Origin: Phycisphaerales bacterium
GTDB taxonomy: Bacteria > Planctomycetota > Phycisphaerae > Phycisphaerales > UBA1924
Assembly (NCBI GenBank): GCA_029260435.1
Contig: JAJDDG010000147.1
Location: 1-42,526 of the forward strand
DNA length: 42,526 nt
Direction: 5' to 3'
A model generated the notes under the pieces. That model worked only from the letters and a program-made list of their open reading frames with translations, made no database searches and had not been told where the DNA came from. The position numbers and the translations under genes were made by a program. Positions 27,114 to 35,643 of the stretch are shown piece after piece. Positions within the stretch are counted from its first letter, which is position 1, and each line of letters starts with the position of its first letter.

Positions 27114-27689
27114 ATGATTGGCGGCATGAGCGAGCGGCGCGAGTTGATCCACAAGGGCAGGAAGTATGACTTCGAGCGTGTGTCGAGCGTGACGCCCGGC
27201 GGGCGGGAAGTGTGTCTGGAGATAGTTCGGCATCCGGGGGCGGTGTGTGTGGTGGCGGTGGCGGGTGCGGGGGTGTGCCCGGAGGGGATGGAGGGGGGCG
27301 AGCACGGCGGGGTGGTGATGATCACGAATTACCGGGTGGCGGTGCAGCGGGAGTTGTGGGAGGTGCCAGCGGGGACGAAGGAGGCGGGGGAGGAGGCGGT
27401 GGTGTGTGCGGGCAGGGAGCTAGAGGAGGAGACGGGGTTCAGCGCGGGGTCTATCGAGCCGATTGCATCGTTTTATACGACCCCCGGTATGACGGACGAA
27501 CTCATGCACGCATTTTTCGCACGCGATCTCACATATGTCGGGCAACGGCTTGAGGCTGACGAGGAGATCTGCGTTTCGGTAAAACGAGCGGACGAGGTGC
27601 TGGGGATGATCGAGAGCGGGGGGATCGTAGACGGAAAAACAATCACGGCGTTGCTGCTTGCGCAGCGGCGCGGGTTGCTTGAGGCATAG
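27114..27689 (+). CDS. Nudix hydrolase, ADP-ribose pyrophosphatase-like
   Basis: A 191-aa nudix enzyme. The nudix box is complete: G-TKEAG-E-EAVVCAG-RELEEETGF, followed by YTTPGMTDELMHAFFARDL, a feature of ADP-sugar pyrophosphatases (NudF/ADPRase type), which split ADP-ribose to AMP and ribose 5-phosphate. Start ATG 27114 is 7 nt after GGGAG; ATG 27126 (MSERREL) is an alternative. It precedes the S2P protease gene by 11 nt. A link to the sirtuin gene at 9023 through ADP-ribose chemistry is possible but not shown. Confidence 0.9.
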   Translation: MIGGMSERRELIHKGRKYDFERVSSVTPGGREVCLEIVRHPGAVCVVAVAGAGVCPEGMEGGEHGGVVMITNYRVAVQRELWEVPAGTKEAGEEAVVCAGRELEEETGFSAGSIEPIASFYTTPGMTDELMHAFFARDLTYVGQRLEADEEICVSVKRADEVLGMIESGGIVDGKTITALLLAQRRGLLEA

Positions 27690-27700
27690 CGGGGCGCTCA

Positions 27701-28753
27701 GTGGCATACGTCGATCGTGATTACAACGAGGTTGGCTCTGGCGGGGGCGGGAAGTGGTCGCGGCTGTTTGGTCGGGTGGTCGAGAACCCGGAGAACCCGC
27801 TCGGGTGGTCGGTGAAGATGTTCCGCTTCCGCGGGATCACGGCGCGGATTCACCTGGTGACGATCCTGTACATGCTGGTGATGATCGTGTCTTCGATCGC
27901 GATGGTGAACATGAATTGGCCGTACATGCTCATGGCGATGACGAGTCTGTTCGTTGTCGTGCTGGCGCACGAGTTCGGGCACTGCTTTGCGTGCCGATGG
28001 AGTGGGGGCGAGGCGGACCGGATCGTGATGCTGCCGTTCGGCGGGCTTGCGCTGTGCCACCCGGTGAATGAATGGAAAGCGAATTTTATTACTGCGGCGG
28101 GTGGGCCGGCGGTGAATGTGGTGCTTGCGCCGTTGACAATCGGAGCGCTGTTTGCGCTTGGGCTTGGTGATTTCGTATTGTTCAATCCGATGAAGCCGGG
28201 CATCATGATTGGCATGGTGGGGACCGAGCGCGGATTGCTTGGTATTGCGGTGTGGTTCTTGCACTACACGAACCTCGTGATCTTCGCGTTCAACGTGTTG
28301 CTACCGATGTTCCCGTTTGATGGGGGGCGGATGATCCAGACGCTGGTCTGGAAGAAGAAGGGGTATCGCAAGTCGATGGAGTTGGCGGTGACTGTTGGGT
28401 ACGCGGGTGCGATTCTGATGGGTGTGATCGCGGTGGTGATGGAGGGGGGGCAGATGCTGCTGGCGATTGCGGTGTTCGGCGGGTGGGCGTGCTGGATGGA
28501 GAAGCGGCGATTAACGGCGGACGCGGAACTGGCGGAGGCTGGGTACGGCGTGGTTGGGGAGTTTTCGGCGGAGGAGGGCGAGGAGGATTCTGGGGCTACT
28601 CGGGCGGAGGCGAAGGCTCTGGAGCGAGAGGCACGGGATCAGGGGGAGCTGGACCGGCTTCTGGCGAAGATTTCGGGATCGGGGATGGAGAGCCTGAGCA
28701 GGGGGGAGCGGAAGTCGCTCGATCGGATGACTAAAAAGAGACGGGACGGGTGA
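27701..28753 (+). CDS. Site-2-protease-like M50 intramembrane metalloprotease
   Basis: A 350-aa multi-pass zinc protease. N-terminal tag MAYVDRDY and a Gly-rich linker, then helices bearing the zinc motif HEFGH (90-94) and the third ligand in FPFDGGR (Asp207); six or so hydrophobic helices lie between 50 and 275. No PDZ domain. The last 34 residues (317-350, LDRLLAKISGSGMESLSRGE and onward) form a helical module related to the end of the neighbouring rhomboid. The start is GTG 27701, 11 nt after the nudix stop. Substrates unknown; such enzymes release membrane-bound regulators or clear signal peptides. Confidence 0.9.
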   Translation: MAYVDRDYNEVGSGGGGKWSRLFGRVVENPENPLGWSVKMFRFRGITARIHLVTILYMLVMIVSSIAMVNMNWPYMLMAMTSLFVVVLAHEFGHCFACRWSGGEADRIVMLPFGGLALCHPVNEWKANFITAAGGPAVNVVLAPLTIGALFALGLGDFVLFNPMKPGIMIGMVGTERGLLGIAVWFLHYTNLVIFAFNVLLPMFPFDGGRMIQTLVWKKKGYRKSMELAVTVGYAGAILMGVIAVVMEGGQMLLAIAVFGGWACWMEKRRLTADAELAEAGYGVVGEFSAEEGEEDSGATRAEAKALEREARDQGELDRLLAKISGSGMESLSRGERKSLDRMTKKRRDG

Positions 28754-28860
28754 GCCCAAGCCGAGGAATGGGGAAGGCGTGGGCTGACATAGCGCGCGTT
28801 GATCGGAGTCGAAGCGGTTTGAGCTCACAGATGGCGAACAAGAATGAGATCGTTAGAAGA

Positions 28861-28980
28861 AGAGGAAGACCCCCTCACCCGGTCTCGCTCCCCCCCACGG
28901 GTCGCTCGACCACCCTCTCCCTCGGAGGGGAGAGGGGGCAAGATGAACAAATCGCTGCTCCCGGAGGGGATAGGGGGCAG
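28861..28980. repeat. REP-like GC-rich hairpin sequence between the two protease genes
   Basis: The 256-nt gap before the rhomboid contains CCCTCTCC (28913-28920) paired with GGAGAGGG (28929-28936), set in the C-rich and G-rich strands CCCCCTCACCCGG and GGGGAGAGGGGGCA. A partial second copy of the G-rich arm (CCCGGAGGGGATAGGGGGCA, 28960-28979) follows. This looks like the dispersed palindromic elements found between genes in many bacteria. No T-run makes it a terminator. Confidence 0.5.
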
Positions 28981-29009
28981 AATCCAATGAACGCGGCGGG
29001 TGGAGCCTG

Positions 29010-30143
29010 ATGGGCATCTATGATCGAGACTATGCAAGGGCGGGGGGCGGCGGGACGTCGGCGCGCTCGGGGGTTGGTGGGTTTTTCTCGGGGCGGAGCG
29101 CGAACTGGTGGCTGATCGCTATCAACGTGGCGGTGTTTGTGATCGGGTCGCTTGTGTTTGGGCCCAACAAGACGATTGATATCCCGACACAGCGGTACGC
29201 GATGAATCCGGGTGTGAGCGTTGATCAGCGAGCGGATGCGATCGTGGATCGTAATCTGGTGACGATCCCTGGGCTGGGGCAGAACGGGTACAGGCTGCAT
29301 GACAGCCGGACGAACGAACTGATTGGGTATCAGGTTGTGATGCAGCGCCCGGTGCTTGAGGGGCTGGGTCATTTCTCGACGGGCAAGGGGTTTATCGAGC
29401 TTGAGGTGTGGCGGCTGGTGACGTTCCAGTTTTTGCACGCGGGAACGGGGCACCTGTTTATGAATATGTTGGGGCTGTATTTCTTCGGCCCTGTGGTGGA
29501 GCGGCGGTTGGGCTCGAAGCGGATTTATCTGGCGTTTTATCTGGTGTGCGGGATCTTTGGTGCGCTGCTGTATCTGCTGTTGAATCTGCTGGGGAATCTG
29601 ATCCCGGGGGGAGGGATTCCGGGGTTACTGTTCCAAGATGTGTATACGCCTTTGGTGGGGGCGAGCGCGGGAGTGTTTGGGGTGCTGATCGCGACGGCAT
29701 TCCTCGCGAAGGACGCGATTATTTTGTTGTTCTTCGTGCTGCCGATGAAGATTCGGCATGCGTCGATCCTGCTGATCGGGATCGAGATGTGGCATCTACT
29801 GAGTGCGGGATCGAACGCGGGTGGGAATGCTGCGCACCTTGGTGGCGCGGCTGCGGGGTGGTTCTTCATCCGGCGGACGCACCTGTTGACGGATTTCTTT
29901 GAGGTGTTCGGACCCTCGAAGGGGAAGAAGAAATCGGCGCGGGGGACGTTCCCGGGCAAGTCGCAGAACCCGAACCCCCCCCGGAACCCCCGGAAAAAGA
30001 TCAGCGCGAAGGTGGGGCGGTCGCCCTCGCAGAAGGAAGTGGATCGGGTGCTGGACAAGGTGCGGGAGCAGGGGATGCACACGCTGAGCGAGAAGGAGAA
30101 GGCGATTCTCCAGCGCGCGACACGCGAGCAGCGGGGCGAGTAG
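29010..30143 (+). CDS. Rhomboid-family intramembrane serine protease
   Basis: A 377-aa rhomboid. N-terminal tag MGIYDRDY and a Gly/Ser linker, first helix ANWWLIAINVAVFVIGSLV, an unusually long loop (about 52-130), then the core: WRLVTFQFLHAGTGHLFMN (WR motif and HxxxN), LVGASAGVFGVLIAT with catalytic Ser219 (GASAG) and GGNAAHLGGAAAG with His276. After a basic Pro/Lys linker the last 34 residues (344-377, VDRVLDKVREQGMHTLSEKE and onward) repeat the helical module of the M50 protease just upstream. The start follows GGTGGAG. Substrate unknown; pairing with the S2P-like gene suggests shared partners. Confidence 0.93.
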   Translation: MGIYDRDYARAGGGGTSARSGVGGFFSGRSANWWLIAINVAVFVIGSLVFGPNKTIDIPTQRYAMNPGVSVDQRADAIVDRNLVTIPGLGQNGYRLHDSRTNELIGYQVVMQRPVLEGLGHFSTGKGFIELEVWRLVTFQFLHAGTGHLFMNMLGLYFFGPVVERRLGSKRIYLAFYLVCGIFGALLYLLLNLLGNLIPGGGIPGLLFQDVYTPLVGASAGVFGVLIATAFLAKDAIILLFFVLPMKIRHASILLIGIEMWHLLSAGSNAGGNAAHLGGAAAGWFFIRRTHLLTDFFEVFGPSKGKKKSARGTFPGKSQNPNPPRNPRKKISAKVGRSPSQKEVDRVLDKVREQGMHTLSEKEKAILQRATREQRGE

Positions 30144-30153
30144 GCTTGGACGG

Positions 30154-31398
30154 ATGAGCCTGCGGTTTGAAATACATCAGAAGAGCGGGGCGTGCGGCGC
30201 ACGGTTGGGGCGCGTGGAGACGGCGCACGGCGGGTTCGATACGCCGGCGTTTATGCCGGTGGGGACGCAGGGGACGGTGAAGGGGCTCACGCCGCCGATG
30301 GTTGCGCAGACGGGCGCGCAGATTCTGCTGGGCAATACGTATCACCTGATGCTGCGGCCGGGTGCGGATCTGGTGGCGCAGATGGGCGGTCTGCATGGGT
30401 TTATGGGTTGGGACAAGCCGATTCTGACGGACTCTGGCGGGTACCAGGCGTATTCGATGAGCGATATCAATGCGTACGACGATGACGGGGTGACGTTTCG
30501 CTCGATCGTTGATGGATCGAAGGTGCGGCTGACGCCCGAGAGGGCGATCGAAGTCCAGAACAAGCTGGGCGCGGACATCATCATGGCGTTGGACGATTGC
30601 CCGCCCTCGGTGGATCCGGCGACGATGAACCAGTCGCGGCTTCGGATCGAGGCGCAGCAGTTGAAAGCGGGGCGGGTGAAGCGGGGGTACGACCACGCGC
30701 GGCGGCTTGATGAATCGAACGAGCGGACGGTGCAGTGGCTCGAGCGGTGCAAGGCGGCGCACGCGCGGGAGGGGGAGCAGGCGCTGTTCGGGATTGTGCA
30801 GGGGGGGACGGATCTGGAGCGGCGGAGCAAGAGCGCGGAGCAGGTGACGAATATCGATCTGCCCGGGTACGCGGTGGGCGGGGTGGCGGTGGGGGAGGGG
30901 TTTGAGGACATCGTGGGGGTGGTGGAGCACACGACGGGGCTGCTGCCAGCGGAGAAGCCGCGGTATCTGATGGGGGTCGGGTACGAGCGGGATATCGTTG
31001 CTGCGGTGCGGTCTGGTGTGGATATGTTTGACTGTGTGCTGCCGACGCGGAATGGTCGGAACTCGAACGCGTTTACGAGGACCGGGCAGATCCGGCTCAG
31101 GAATGCTCGGTTCGCGGATGACCCGGGGGCGATCGAGGCGGGGTGCGGGTGCCCGGCGTGCGATCCTGGGCGGCATGGGTGGGAGACACCCGGGGGGGCG
31201 GCGATTTCGAGGGCGTATATCCGGCATTTGTTCATGGCGAAGGAGATGCTGGGGGCGATTCTGGTGAGCCTGCACAACCTGCACCACTTCCAGCGGCTCA
31301 TGTTGGACATCCGGGCGGCGATCGGGGATGATTCGTGGTCTGCCTTGGCTGAGGCGTGGCCGGTTGCTGCGGGAGCGGCGGTTGGTGCGTCTGAGTGA
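30154..31398 (+). CDS. tgt: tRNA-guanine (queuine) transglycosylase
   Basis: A 414-aa enzyme that swaps guanine-34 for preQ1 in tRNAs with GUN anticodons. The nucleophile and acid/base aspartates are seen as Asp93 in LTDSGG and Asp293 in FDCVLPTRNGRN; also GTQGTVKGL, NTYHLMLRPG, GIVQGG, YAVGGVAVGE and MGVGYERDI. The zinc site begins C331-x-C333-x2-C336. SGGYQAYS replaces the usual SGGFQVFS, a mild variation. Located 10 nt after the rhomboid and upstream of yajC-secDF, the order conserved across many bacteria. Confidence 0.97.
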   Translation: MSLRFEIHQKSGACGARLGRVETAHGGFDTPAFMPVGTQGTVKGLTPPMVAQTGAQILLGNTYHLMLRPGADLVAQMGGLHGFMGWDKPILTDSGGYQAYSMSDINAYDDDGVTFRSIVDGSKVRLTPERAIEVQNKLGADIIMALDDCPPSVDPATMNQSRLRIEAQQLKAGRVKRGYDHARRLDESNERTVQWLERCKAAHAREGEQALFGIVQGGTDLERRSKSAEQVTNIDLPGYAVGGVAVGEGFEDIVGVVEHTTGLLPAEKPRYLMGVGYERDIVAAVRSGVDMFDCVLPTRNGRNSNAFTRTGQIRLRNARFADDPGAIEAGCGCPACDPGRHGWETPGGAAISRAYIRHLFMAKEMLGAILVSLHNLHHFQRLMLDIRAAIGDDSWSALAEAWPVAAGAAVGASE

Positions 31399-31534: not shown

Positions 31535-32008
31535 ATGGACGCTATGGGAACTGATCTGGGGATGCTGCTTGCTTCGGCACCGGGGATTGGCGGCGGTAGC
31601 CCGACCACGACAACCGGCGCGCCGGGTGGGACGGGCGGCGCGGGCGGGCAGGGGCAGTCGCCGTTTGGCGGGGGTTTTCTTTTCCTGATGTTCGGGATGA
31701 TCATCTTCATGATCGTGATGAGCACGATGAGCTCGCGCAAAGAGAAGAAGAAGCGCGAGGCGATGCTGGGTTCGCTCGGGCGGCACGATCGGGTGGTGAC
31801 GAGCGGCGGGGTGATTGGGACGATCGTTGAAGTGAAGAGCGATGAGGTCGTGCTGAAGGTGGACGAGTCCACCAACACGCGGATTCATTTCAGCAGGGCG
31901 GCGGTGCAGAGCGTGCTGAAGCACGCGAGCAGCGGCGGGGGAGAGCAATCGGAGGAGGAGGCGGGGGATATCAAGGAAACGCTGGAGCCGGCCGAACAGC
32001 TCGGGTAA
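31535..32008 (+). CDS. yajC: Preprotein translocase accessory subunit YajC
   Basis: A 157-aa single-pass membrane protein that associates with SecDF. A Gly/Thr-rich N-terminus (STTTTGAPGG-like) leads to one membrane helix (FLFLMFGMIIFMIVMSTM, about 48-65), the basic SSRKEKKKREAML, and the conserved GRHDRVVTSGGVIGTIVEV barrel, then an acidic tail. The N-terminal Gly-rich part is longer than usual. Start ATG 31535 with AAGGGACG upstream. Ends 68 nt before secDF. Confidence 0.94.
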   Translation: MDAMGTDLGMLLASAPGIGGGSPTTTTGAPGGTGGAGGQGQSPFGGGFLFLMFGMIIFMIVMSTMSSRKEKKKREAMLGSLGRHDRVVTSGGVIGTIVEVKSDEVVLKVDESTNTRIHFSRAAVQSVLKHASSGGGEQSEEEAGDIKETLEPAEQLG

Positions 32009-32076: not shown

Positions 32077-35000
32077 ATGCAGCACATCGGACGCAACTCG
32101 GCGATGGTCATCGCCCTTGTTCTTCTCTGCCTCGCGGCGATTTTTCCACCCGAGCGCAACTTGCGTCTGGGCAAGGATCTCGCTGGTGGTGTGAGCCTGA
32201 CATACTCGGTGGATGTGAAGCCGAGCGACCCGCATAACACTGTGGATCTGACGATCCAGGTGCTCAAGGACCGGCTTGATCCGAACGGGATGAAGGAGCT
32301 GAGCATCGTCCAGCAGGGGCGGGATCGGATCGAGATCTCGTTCCCGTTGCCCAACGACGAGGTGAAGGAACTGCGGGGCGCGTTCGAGGCGGAACTGGAC
32401 AAGCTGCGCGACTTCGAGATTGACCCGTCTGCCTTTGAGCGGGCGTTGCGTGCGACCGGCGAGACGCGGGTAGCGCGGCTCGAAGAGATGATCGACGGCA
32501 GCGCGGCGCGGGAGCAGATGCTTCGGCCCGTGATCGATGCTGTCGGCATGACGGATATCGCGCGGGAAGCCTACGAGACATATGTAGCGGCCGGCGGCGC
32601 GGATGACGATGAGTCGGCGCGACTGCTGGACTCGGCGGTTGACGCCGAGGAGGCTCTGGAAAGCGCGCGGGGAGGCGTGACGGCGGCGTTGGTGAGCGCG
32701 GATGATGTTCGCGGCGCGTTGGAGCTGAGCCCGGTGCAGCCGATGGTGCTCAACTCGCAGACGAAGAACATGGACATGCTGGAGAGCCCGCGCGAGCTGG
32801 CGTTGAGTTCGGTGCGAGGGCGTGCGCGGCAGCTGGACGAGGCGATGGCGGGGCGGGAGTTTGCGGAGGGTGAGATCGGGGATGTCGAGCGGACGCTGGA
32901 CAGCGCGCTGGCGGCGCATGCGGTGTACGCGGCGCAGCGGCAGGGGTTCGATGATCCGAACGAGGTGATCCGGCTGCTGCGTGGCGCTGGTGTGCTGACG
33001 TTCCGGATTGCAATGGAGCCGGGGATCCGGACGGACGAGCAGCAGCTTCGCAAGCAGCTTCGCGAGCGCGGTCCGGACGCGGTGAACGAGGATGGTGTGC
33101 GGTGGTTCGCGCTGAACAAGCTCGAGGACTGGTACGACGATACGGATTCGTTCGGGCTGTTGCGGTCGGATCCCGGGGTGTATTTCCAGAGTTATCACGG
33201 GAAGATCGTGGAGGAACGGGACGGTGTGTACTACATGCTGTTCCACGACGACCCGACGCAGCGGATGACACGGGCGGAGGGCGAGTGGAGCGTGCGGAGC
33301 TCGAGCCAGGGGATCGATGATCGCGGTCGCCCGGCGATCAACTTCCGGATGGACGCGCGCGGCGCGACCCTGATGGGGAGGCTGACGGACTCGAATGTTG
33401 GTCGTCCGATGGGTGTGCTGCTCGATGACCGGGTGTACACGGCGCCGAACATTAATCAGCGGTTGACGGATAACATCCAGATCCACGGGTCGTTCCAGAC
33501 GCGGGAGATCACCGAGATCATCAAGATGCTGAACGCGGGTTCGCTCAGCGCCCGGCTCGGCGATCGCCCGATCTCGCAGAACACGCTCGCGCCGACGCTC
33601 GGCAAGGACAACCTCATGAAGGGGTTGGAGGCGAGCTGGATCGCGCTGGTCGCGGTTTGTGTGTTCATGGTGATTTACTACTTCTCGAACGGCGTGGTGG
33701 CGATGCTCGCGCTGGCGACGAACGCGATCCTGATTCTTGGTGCGATGAGTTTGACACGGGCGGCGTTCACGCTCCCCGGGATCGCGGGGATCGTGCTGAC
33801 GTTTGGTATGGCGGTGGACGCGAATGTGCTGATTTACGAGCGCATCCGCGAGGAGCTGGCGAAGGGGAACGATCTCAAGGCGTCGATCCGGATCAGCTAC
33901 AAAAAGGTGATGTCCACGATTGTTGACGCGAACGTGACGAACCTGATCGTGTGTTTCGTGCTCGCGTATACGGCGACGCCCGAGGTGAAGGGCTTCGCGA
34001 TCACGCTGGGTATCGGCATCGTGGCGACGCTGTTCAGCGCGTTGATCGTGACGCGGCTGATCTACGCGATCATGCTGGATTTTGTGAAGATCAAGACGAT
34101 GCGGCAGCTGCCGATTGTGCTGCCGGTGATCGACAAGGTGCTGACGCCGAGGCTGGACTTTATTGGGTTGCGGCCGCTGTTTGTTGTTGTCAGCACGGTG
34201 CTGGTGGGGTCGGGTATTTTTATGGTCGCTTCGCAGGGCGAGCAGATGCTGGGCACGGAGTTCCGGGGCGGCACGGAGGTGACGGTCGAGCTTCGCGCGG
34301 ATGCGGAGCGGATGAATCGCGAGGCTGTTGAACTTCGGGTGATGGATATCGTGAGCAAGGCGGAGGCGGCGCTGGAGGCGGACGCGGGTGACGCGGAGGC
34401 GTTGGTGCTTGCGCGGCTGACGGATGCGCTGGTGGTGCCGGTGAATCCGGAGTCGGACGGGGTGACTTCGGGCGTGTTTAAGATCAGCAGCACGATCTCG
34501 GAGGACGAGGCGACGGAGTTGAGCGAGCAGCAGGTGCTGCAGGAGGCGATCGTTGCGGCGTTTGTGGATGTGATCGATCAGCGGCAGCCGCTGCGGTTTG
34601 ACGGGTGGGACAGCGAGGCGCTTTCTGCGGCGCCGATCAACAAGGTGATCCGCGAGGATCTGGGATCGAACATTGGTCGTCCCGAGGTTCGGATCCCGGT
34701 GGATCGGTATGTGGGCGGTGTGGCGGTGGTGATGGACAATTTCGAGTCGCCTCTGCCATCGCGTGAGGAGCTTGAGAAGCGGCTCGATCACATGCGTGCG
34801 CAGCCGGATTACTCGGCGCTGTTGAAGCGTGCGCACGAGTTGGTTGTTCTTGACGGGAGTGACGCGGCGGTGGAAACCGCGGTGTTGTTGTCGATCGATT
34901 CATCGGTGAGTTTCTATACGGACGAGGCGCGGTGGAACGAATCGGTTGCGGGACGCGAGTGGTCTTTGGTTCGCGATGCGTTGACCGGCGCGACGACGCT

Positions 35001-35643
35001 CGCGGGTGTGCAGTCGTTTAGCGCGTCGATCGCGCAGGACTTCAAGGCGCAGGCGATTGTTGCTGTGGTGCTGAGTTTCCTGCTGATCATGGCGTATATC
35101 TGGATCCGGTTCGGTTCGATTCGTTATTCGATGGCGGCGATCACTGCGCTGCTGCACGATGTGGTCGCGGTGCTTGGGTTGATCGCGCTTGCGGAGATTC
35201 TCTACGAGAACTTCCCCGCTCTCGCGGCGATCGGGATCCAGCCGTTTAAGATCGACCTGGGTCTGGTGGCGGCGATCCTGACGATCATTGGGTATTCGCT
35301 GAACGACACGATCGTGATTCTGGACCGTATCCGTGAGAACCGCGGGAAGCTGGCGTACGCCTCGCGGGATTGCATCAACAGCTCGATCTCGCAGACGCTG
35401 AGCCGGACGCTGATTACGTCGGGCACGACGCTGGTGGCGTTGACTGTGATGTTCGTGATCGGTGGGGAGGGGATCGCGTCGTTCACGTATGCGTTGTTGT
35501 GCGGCGTGGTTGTCGGGACGTACTCCTCGATCGCGGTTGCATCGCCTATGGTGTATTCGAAGAAGATTCCTCCGGCGTCGCGTCAATATGCGGCGGCGCA
35601 CTCGGCGGAGGCTGAGCGGGAACTGATCGGTAGCGCGTCCTGA
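32077..35643 (+). CDS. secDF: Fused protein translocase SecD-SecF
   Basis: An 1188-aa RND-type protein that uses the proton gradient to complete Sec export. The SecD half has LGKDLAGGVSLTYSVD, a large periplasmic region with extra helical segments (about residues 130-300), SARLGDRPISQNTLAPTLGK, and GIVLTFGMAVDANVLIYERI with the proton-relay Asp. The SecF half begins near residue 690 with GTEFRGGTEVTVELR and has RYSMAAITALLHDVVAVLGL, IGYSLNDTIVILDRIREN and SRTLITSGTTLVAL. Twelve membrane helices are expected. Fusion is known in several phyla including planctomycetes; the periplasmic insertion makes it longer than the usual 700-900 aa of fused forms. Confidence 0.95.
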   Translation: MQHIGRNSAMVIALVLLCLAAIFPPERNLRLGKDLAGGVSLTYSVDVKPSDPHNTVDLTIQVLKDRLDPNGMKELSIVQQGRDRIEISFPLPNDEVKELRGAFEAELDKLRDFEIDPSAFERALRATGETRVARLEEMIDGSAAREQMLRPVIDAVGMTDIAREAYETYVAAGGADDDESARLLDSAVDAEEALESARGGVTAALVSADDVRGALELSPVQPMVLNSQTKNMDMLESPRELALSSVRGRARQLDEAMAGREFAEGEIGDVERTLDSALAAHAVYAAQRQGFDDPNEVIRLLRGAGVLTFRIAMEPGIRTDEQQLRKQLRERGPDAVNEDGVRWFALNKLEDWYDDTDSFGLLRSDPGVYFQSYHGKIVEERDGVYYMLFHDDPTQRMTRAEGEWSVRSSSQGIDDRGRPAINFRMDARGATLMGRLTDSNVGRPMGVLLDDRVYTAPNINQRLTDNIQIHGSFQTREITEIIKMLNAGSLSARLGDRPISQNTLAPTLGKDNLMKGLEASWIALVAVCVFMVIYYFSNGVVAMLALATNAILILGAMSLTRAAFTLPGIAGIVLTFGMAVDANVLIYERIREELAKGNDLKASIRISYKKVMSTIVDANVTNLIVCFVLAYTATPEVKGFAITLGIGIVATLFSALIVTRLIYAIMLDFVKIKTMRQLPIVLPVIDKVLTPRLDFIGLRPLFVVVSTVLVGSGIFMVASQGEQMLGTEFRGGTEVTVELRADAERMNREAVELRVMDIVSKAEAALEADAGDAEALVLARLTDALVVPVNPESDGVTSGVFKISSTISEDEATELSEQQVLQEAIVAAFVDVIDQRQPLRFDGWDSEALSAAPINKVIREDLGSNIGRPEVRIPVDRYVGGVAVVMDNFESPLPSREELEKRLDHMRAQPDYSALLKRAHELVVLDGSDAAVETAVLLSIDSSVSFYTDEARWNESVAGREWSLVRDALTGATTLAGVQSFSASIAQDFKAQAIVAVVLSFLLIMAYIWIRFGSIRYSMAAITALLHDVVAVLGLIALAEILYENFPALAAIGIQPFKIDLGLVAAILTIIGYSLNDTIVILDRIRENRGKLAYASRDCINSSISQTLSRTLITSGTTLVALTVMFVIGGEGIASFTYALLCGVVVGTYSSIAVASPMVYSKKIPPASRQYAAAHSAEAERELIGSAS

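Follow-up and report, generated by a model that had tools for sequence, protein, structure and literature searches.

A DUF6576 hairpin shared by adjacent site-2 and rhomboid intramembrane proteases of a planctomycete: a possible cytosolic docking module

The roles of most bacterial rhomboids, and their coupling to other membrane proteases, are a standing question. In membrane quality control, the Bacillus subtilis rhomboid YqgP serves FtsH as an adaptor, a role that does not require YqgP catalysis (PMC7231995). GlpG and Rhom7 are reported to clear orphan membrane proteins (PMC7232013), and RseP has been assigned a role in signal-peptide removal (PMC8144685). The window analyzed here, a stretch of 42,526 nucleotides from a Phycisphaerales bacterium, contains a site-2 protease (S2P) gene followed by a rhomboid gene, and both proteins end in the same short domain, DUF6576. 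We interpret this domain, with a probability of roughly 0.4, as a small cytosolic hairpin that docks its carriers on a shared partner involved in making membrane proteins or in controlling their quality. The 35-residue tail offers a direct handle on the standing question, and its partner, once pulled down, would make the context of two protease families testable in many bacteria.

The features of the locus are collected in Table 1. The S2P is a multi-pass membrane protein with the motifs HEFGH and FPFDGG (HExxH and xPxDGG), and the best solved-structure matches to its model were mjS2P (3b4r) and SpoIVFB (8vjm). Its GTG start lies 11 bases after the NUDIX stop codon and is backed by homologues with an ATG at the same N-terminal tag (MSFTDRDY in L040, MGYDDRHY in L037, and MAFHDRPY in L095). 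The rhomboid (PF01694) has both the catalytic Ser motif GASA and the His motif AHLGG (NAAHLGG), and its model matches GlpG. Motifs and model matches agree with an earlier, sequence-only reading of this DNA that had assigned the two catalytic cores, Peptidase_M50 and Rhomboid, to unrelated families. The rhomboid also has an ~80-residue insertion after its first transmembrane (TM) segment; this insertion (residues about 54 to 133) is strand-rich, varies in length among neighbors, and is short in L264.

Table 1. Features of the S2P-rhomboid locus (window positions)
Feature	Position	Strand	Remarks
NUDIX hydrolase, upstream neighbor	27114..27689	+	Pfam NUDIX E 1.4e-11; same place in relatives
M50 site-2-protease-like intramembrane metalloprotease (S2P)	27701..28753	+	350 aa, GTG start; Pfam Peptidase_M50 E 6.6e-14
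S2P N-terminal tag MAYVDRDY	27701..27724	+	Homologous tags in L040, L037, L095, L348
S2P C-terminal DUF6576 hairpin	28625..28738	+	PF20216 E 8.9e-9 (whole-genome search)
Short 24-bp palindrome in S2P-rhomboid gap	28913..28936	+	One of 4 near-identical genome copies
Rhomboid serine protease	29010..30143	+	377 aa; Pfam Rhomboid E 1.7e-26
Rhomboid N-terminal tag MGIYDRDY	29010..29033	+	M, G, D, R, Y invariant among 7 syntenic rhomboids
Rhomboid C-terminal DUF6576 hairpin	30018..30116	+	PF20216 E 1.8e-9 (whole-genome search)
tgt, queuine tRNA-ribosyltransferase, downstream neighbor	30154..31398	+	Pfam TGT E 1.9e-138; conserved
yajC, Sec accessory subunit	31535..32008	+	Pfam YajC E 2.2e-19
secDF, fused	32077..35643	+	Pfam SecD_SecF_C E 5.2e-61

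An ungapped alignment of the two C-termini covers 35 residues, 15 of them identical, and none of 20,000 shuffles reached its BLOSUM62 score of 72 (best shuffle, 52), so the resemblance noticed earlier by eye (13 of 34 residues) was borne out. Both tails score above the curated PF20216 cut-off of 27.3 bits (34.7 bits for the S2P and 36.0 bits for the rhomboid), and a Pfam scan of the window placed the matches at S2P residues 309 to 346 (E 2e-8) and rhomboid residues 337 to 369 (E 7.5e-9). When profiles of the two tails were exchanged in the first phylum sample, the rhomboid-tail profile recovered 37/37 S2P tails and the S2P-tail profile 83/83 rhomboid tails (worst E, 1.3e-8); hhalign related the two profiles with a probability of 99.6%. 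By sequence, both tails are members of one family, DUF6576, and the pattern D..L.K...G..SL..E...L is strictly conserved over unrelated cores and phyla.

AlphaFold predicted a two-helix hairpin at each C-terminus in models built from just 5 (S2P) and 7 (rhomboid) aligned sequences. In the S2P the helices span residues 298 to 327 and 334 to 349, with a mean pLDDT of 84 to 91 per block from residue 311 onward; in the rhomboid they span residues 341 to 354 and 361 to 374 (mean pLDDT, 80 to 92 per block). The hairpins are modeled as separate units behind a low-confidence linker. The N-terminal tags have low confidence, and neither model gave any sign of a tag docking on a tail. A sequence search of solved structures with the S2P tail returned nothing similar. 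The C-terminus of the S2P and rhomboid folds is usually cytosolic and, by this analogy, both tails probably face the cytosol; a point against this placement is that residues 270 to 350 of the S2P have a net charge of −4 and are thus not basic.

In the 3.1-Mb genome, a whole-genome search found only two copies of DUF6576, those of the adjacent S2P and rhomboid. Across Planctomycetota, 268 of 294 genomes have one to five copies. The census drew mainly on the strongest matches, hand-chosen loci, and related genomes, so that its counts are not independent, and many of the tailed sequences are stop-to-stop frames whose starts are uncurated. The first phylum sample comprised 122 carriers, of which 83 fell in a rhomboid cluster, 37 in an M50 cluster, and 2 elsewhere; Pfam confirmed Rhomboid in 83 and M50 in 36 of the 37. 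A second set of 55 matches, weak ones included, contained the same two classes and two further kinds, namely, SRP54 M-like proteins and degenerate rhomboid-like proteins. All 30 carriers sampled from Verrucomicrobiota were rhomboids, as were, clearly, 21 of the Calditrichota carriers, and one Bacteroidota control genome also contained the domain. A weak match in the middle of one protein (L231) was taken as false. At one locus (L087:2478-4843), two S2P genes lie side by side, each with DUF6576. The possibility that the module is a generic tail on cytoplasmic proteins, which the sequence-only reading had named as a check on its own proposal, was ruled out by this census, since the carriers sampled in three phyla are nearly all intramembrane proteases or their inactive relatives. 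Both tailed classes were present in 29 of 36 classified genomes, which were chosen mainly for multiple copies; many genomes have just one DUF6576 protein, in most cases a rhomboid.

The N-termini present a more restricted picture. The shared DRDY tag noted earlier is real on both window proteins, with the consensus M-G/A-x-x-D-R-x-Y, but it is not equally general in the two classes: it was found on 52 of the 83 DUF6576 rhomboids of the first phylum sample and on only five S2Ps (those of the window, L037, L040, L095, and L348). The tag thus belongs chiefly to rhomboids and is shared by some S2Ps close to the lineage of the window. In 12 genomes of the window's order, a version of it was present on 12/12 distinct readable tailed rhomboids and 0/12 tail-less rhomboids, one of which has the partial form MAQTDRDD; this split would have a probability of 3.7e-7 if the rhomboids were independent of one another, which, as relatives, they are not. 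As a candidate for a common N-terminus, the tag was rejected, because in the window's own genome it occurs at credible gene starts in the two proteases only, the other pattern matches lying in short or internal frames.

Relatives' loci were reached via the tgt gene, for which the closest match to the window's copy (64% identical) is in a Phycisphaerales metagenome-assembled genome (MAG). The cluster NUDIX-S2P/rhomboid-tgt-yajC-secDF is present in 14 genomes, including that of the window; among its members are MAGs of Phycisphaerales, Phycisphaerae, Planctomycetaceae, and Planctomycetia. The rhomboid precedes the S2P in 2 of the 14 (L037 and L095), and in the latter (genome G077) the S2P is tailed and the adjacent rhomboid is tail-less. 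Other occupants of the slot are two adjacent tagged and tailed rhomboids (L036:5126-7009) or a rhomboid alone (L043, L044, L257, and L259); away from tgt, we found a NUDIX-rhomboid pair in L041 and L042 and a NUDIX-S2P pair in L348. Conservation of the pair as neighbors holds around the window's own order but not elsewhere; outside the window's group, tailed S2Ps and rhomboids are mostly unlinked, though they usually co-occur.

Some carriers have lost their catalytic residues. The Ser/His pair is absent in 37 of 174 aligned tailed rhomboids (about a fifth), all of which keep the tail. DUF6576 is likewise kept by S2Ps with an altered HExxH motif (L019, L105, L211, and L248) and by two altered S2Ps that lie beside the cluster rhomboid (L262, with HDAAR and PFAGG, and L264, with RELVH). 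A small group of degenerate rhomboid-like membrane proteins, seen in one family, has the domain (L107, L201, and L245), and in each of the three genomes checked the remaining DUF6576 carrier is a rhomboid that lacks the catalytic pair. Catalysis is dispensable for retention of the tail. The domain also occurs in fusions: in six genomes of one family, stand-alone SRP54 M-domain-like proteins end in DUF6576 (L101, L197, L198, L222, L227, and L237), with SRP_SPB E values down to 1.3e-18 for the M-like domain. In at least three of the six, the fusion gene has a neighbor that encodes the Ffh GTPase motif, and one fusion gene lies inside an ffh-rpsP-trmD-like cluster whose genes were named by eye from sequence. 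The fusion protein is possibly an SRP helper or competitor.

In five Calditrichota genomes (L385, L386, L387, L388, and L409), the stop codon of the rhomboid comes a few codons past an A9 run, and the DUF6576 sequence lies behind it in the −1 frame. Four short Calditrichota frames that had been candidates for stand-alone small DUF6576 proteins proved instead to be such out-of-frame ends of rhomboid genes, of which there are five. The A9 run is in the identical place in 5/5 genomes despite differing surroundings and is absent from relatives with an in-frame tail. Assembly errors are unlikely to account for all five; the simplest reading suggested by the sequences is conserved transcriptional or translational slippage that would yield both tailed and tail-less rhomboid.

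Taken together, the tail is almost confined to intramembrane proteases, outlasts the loss of catalysis, and is also present on a protein-targeting factor, and it is therefore probably a docking handle. The retention of the tail by rhomboids and S2Ps without catalytic residues is what makes docking the best fit. The hairpin would tie proteins that grip TM or signal segments (rhomboids and S2Ps, inactive forms of either, and SRP54 M-like proteins) to one partner, for which we infer the Sec/SRP machinery or a membrane AAA protease such as FtsH. The rhomboid and the S2P would then have orphan or leftover membrane segments as their substrates, like GlpG/Rhom7 and RseP in other organisms, dead copies would serve as adaptors, like B. 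subtilis YqgP for FtsH, and the N-terminal tag would probably be a second contact, mainly specific to rhomboids. This best inference draws on the confinement of the tail to handlers of membrane segments, its independence from catalysis, its exchangeability between unrelated cores, its synteny with SecDF-YajC, and the SRP-like fusion. The sequence-only reading had cast both termini as docking modules that bring the two proteases to one partner or substrate, perhaps at the Sec machinery. Docking on a common partner is favored here for the tail, but less so for the tag, which is mainly a rhomboid feature modeled at low confidence; for the Sec link there are two independent hints, the yajC-secDF synteny and the SRP54 M-like fusion. 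Against the docking reading, tgt-yajC-secDF is a common cluster, neighboring genes need not work together, the SRP fusion was found in one family only in this sample, and the tag has no confident modeled structure. A broader version, in which DUF6576 would be a general cytosolic docking code of Planctomycetota and related phyla, with one hub of membrane-protein biogenesis for both protease classes, for their inactive forms, and for a receptor like the SRP54 M domain, and with A9 slippage setting the tailed fraction in some lineages, seems to us doubtful.

The strongest rival is that DUF6576 hairpins pair with one another, forming direct homo- or hetero-oligomers of rhomboid and S2P, or of active and inactive copies, for example, as a two-step cutting pair. 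Two-helix hairpins frequently oligomerize, many planctomycete genomes have at least two DUF6576 proteins, mostly of both classes and adjacent in the window's family, and the dead S2Ps retained beside a rhomboid would suit a structural partner. Hetero-pairing is not the general role, however, since many genomes have a single carrier; moreover, the tailed S2P of G077 has a tail-less rhomboid beside it, and pairing leaves the SRP M-like fusion unexplained. We consider pairing unlikely, though a serious contender, and infer that a biogenesis or quality-control partner is likelier than a private S2P-rhomboid complex. It is improbable that the tail regulates in cis, gating its own protease, e.g., by bending back toward it from the cytosolic side. 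In favor of gating, the tail comes after the final TM segment, and the arrangement in Calditrichota would yield protease with and without it; against it, dead rhomboids and S2Ps still have the tail, it occurs on two unrelated folds and a soluble M-like domain, and in the models it forms a hairpin of its own after a low-confidence linker. Slightly less probable again is a mere stabilizing cap or turnover signal with no specific partner; a short module at the extreme C-terminus with no described function would suit this role, but its strict conservation across unrelated cores and phyla and its limitation to one functional class would not. Finally, short helical tails can resemble each other, but chance or convergence of two amphipathic tails has a negligible probability and was ruled out by the shuffles, the hhalign comparison, and cross-profile E values no worse than about 1e-8 for any member.

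Compared with known systems, the docking reading finds partial counterparts. As to a site-1/site-2 regulated intramembrane proteolysis cascade, we found no linked anti-sigma factor or other membrane substrate among the scanned neighbors (NUDIX, tgt, yajC, secDF, and a prepilin-type peptidase); an unlinked substrate is possible. The window S2P shares its fold with SpoIVFB-type S2Ps, in which the C-terminus of SpoIVFB is a cytosolic CBS domain; the window protein has the DUF6576 hairpin there. In relatives, stand-alone domains like the M domain of SRP54/Ffh are fused to DUF6576 in proteins that lack the GTPase domain; the window proteins have no M domain. Pfam PF20216, above whose cut-off both window tails score, is entered as a family of unknown function, and neither the name DUF6576 nor a tail shared by rhomboids and S2Ps was found in the literature searched, which covered few subscription papers. 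Rhomboids, S2Ps, and DUF6576 are each known already; we did not find described the sharing of the domain by two protease classes, dead copies, and SRP M-like proteins. GlpG and Rhom7 belong to the same protease family and have a plausible job for the window rhomboid, but that work, in its accessible text, concerns catalytic rhomboids and mentions no S2P partner or shared terminal module (PMC7232013). A further likeness is to YqgP, a rhomboid with a cytosolic extramembrane part that is also a catalysis-independent adaptor (PMC7231995). YqgP, however, binds metal through an N-terminal domain and ends in an extracellular TPR domain, whereas by Pfam the window rhomboid has neither and begins with the tag and a TM segment; since it has no TPR and no domain before the rhomboid core, we do not file it as a YqgP orthologue. 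A physical transfer of substrate to FtsH, by analogy with YqgP, is a works-like hypothesis for how the window rhomboid may operate.
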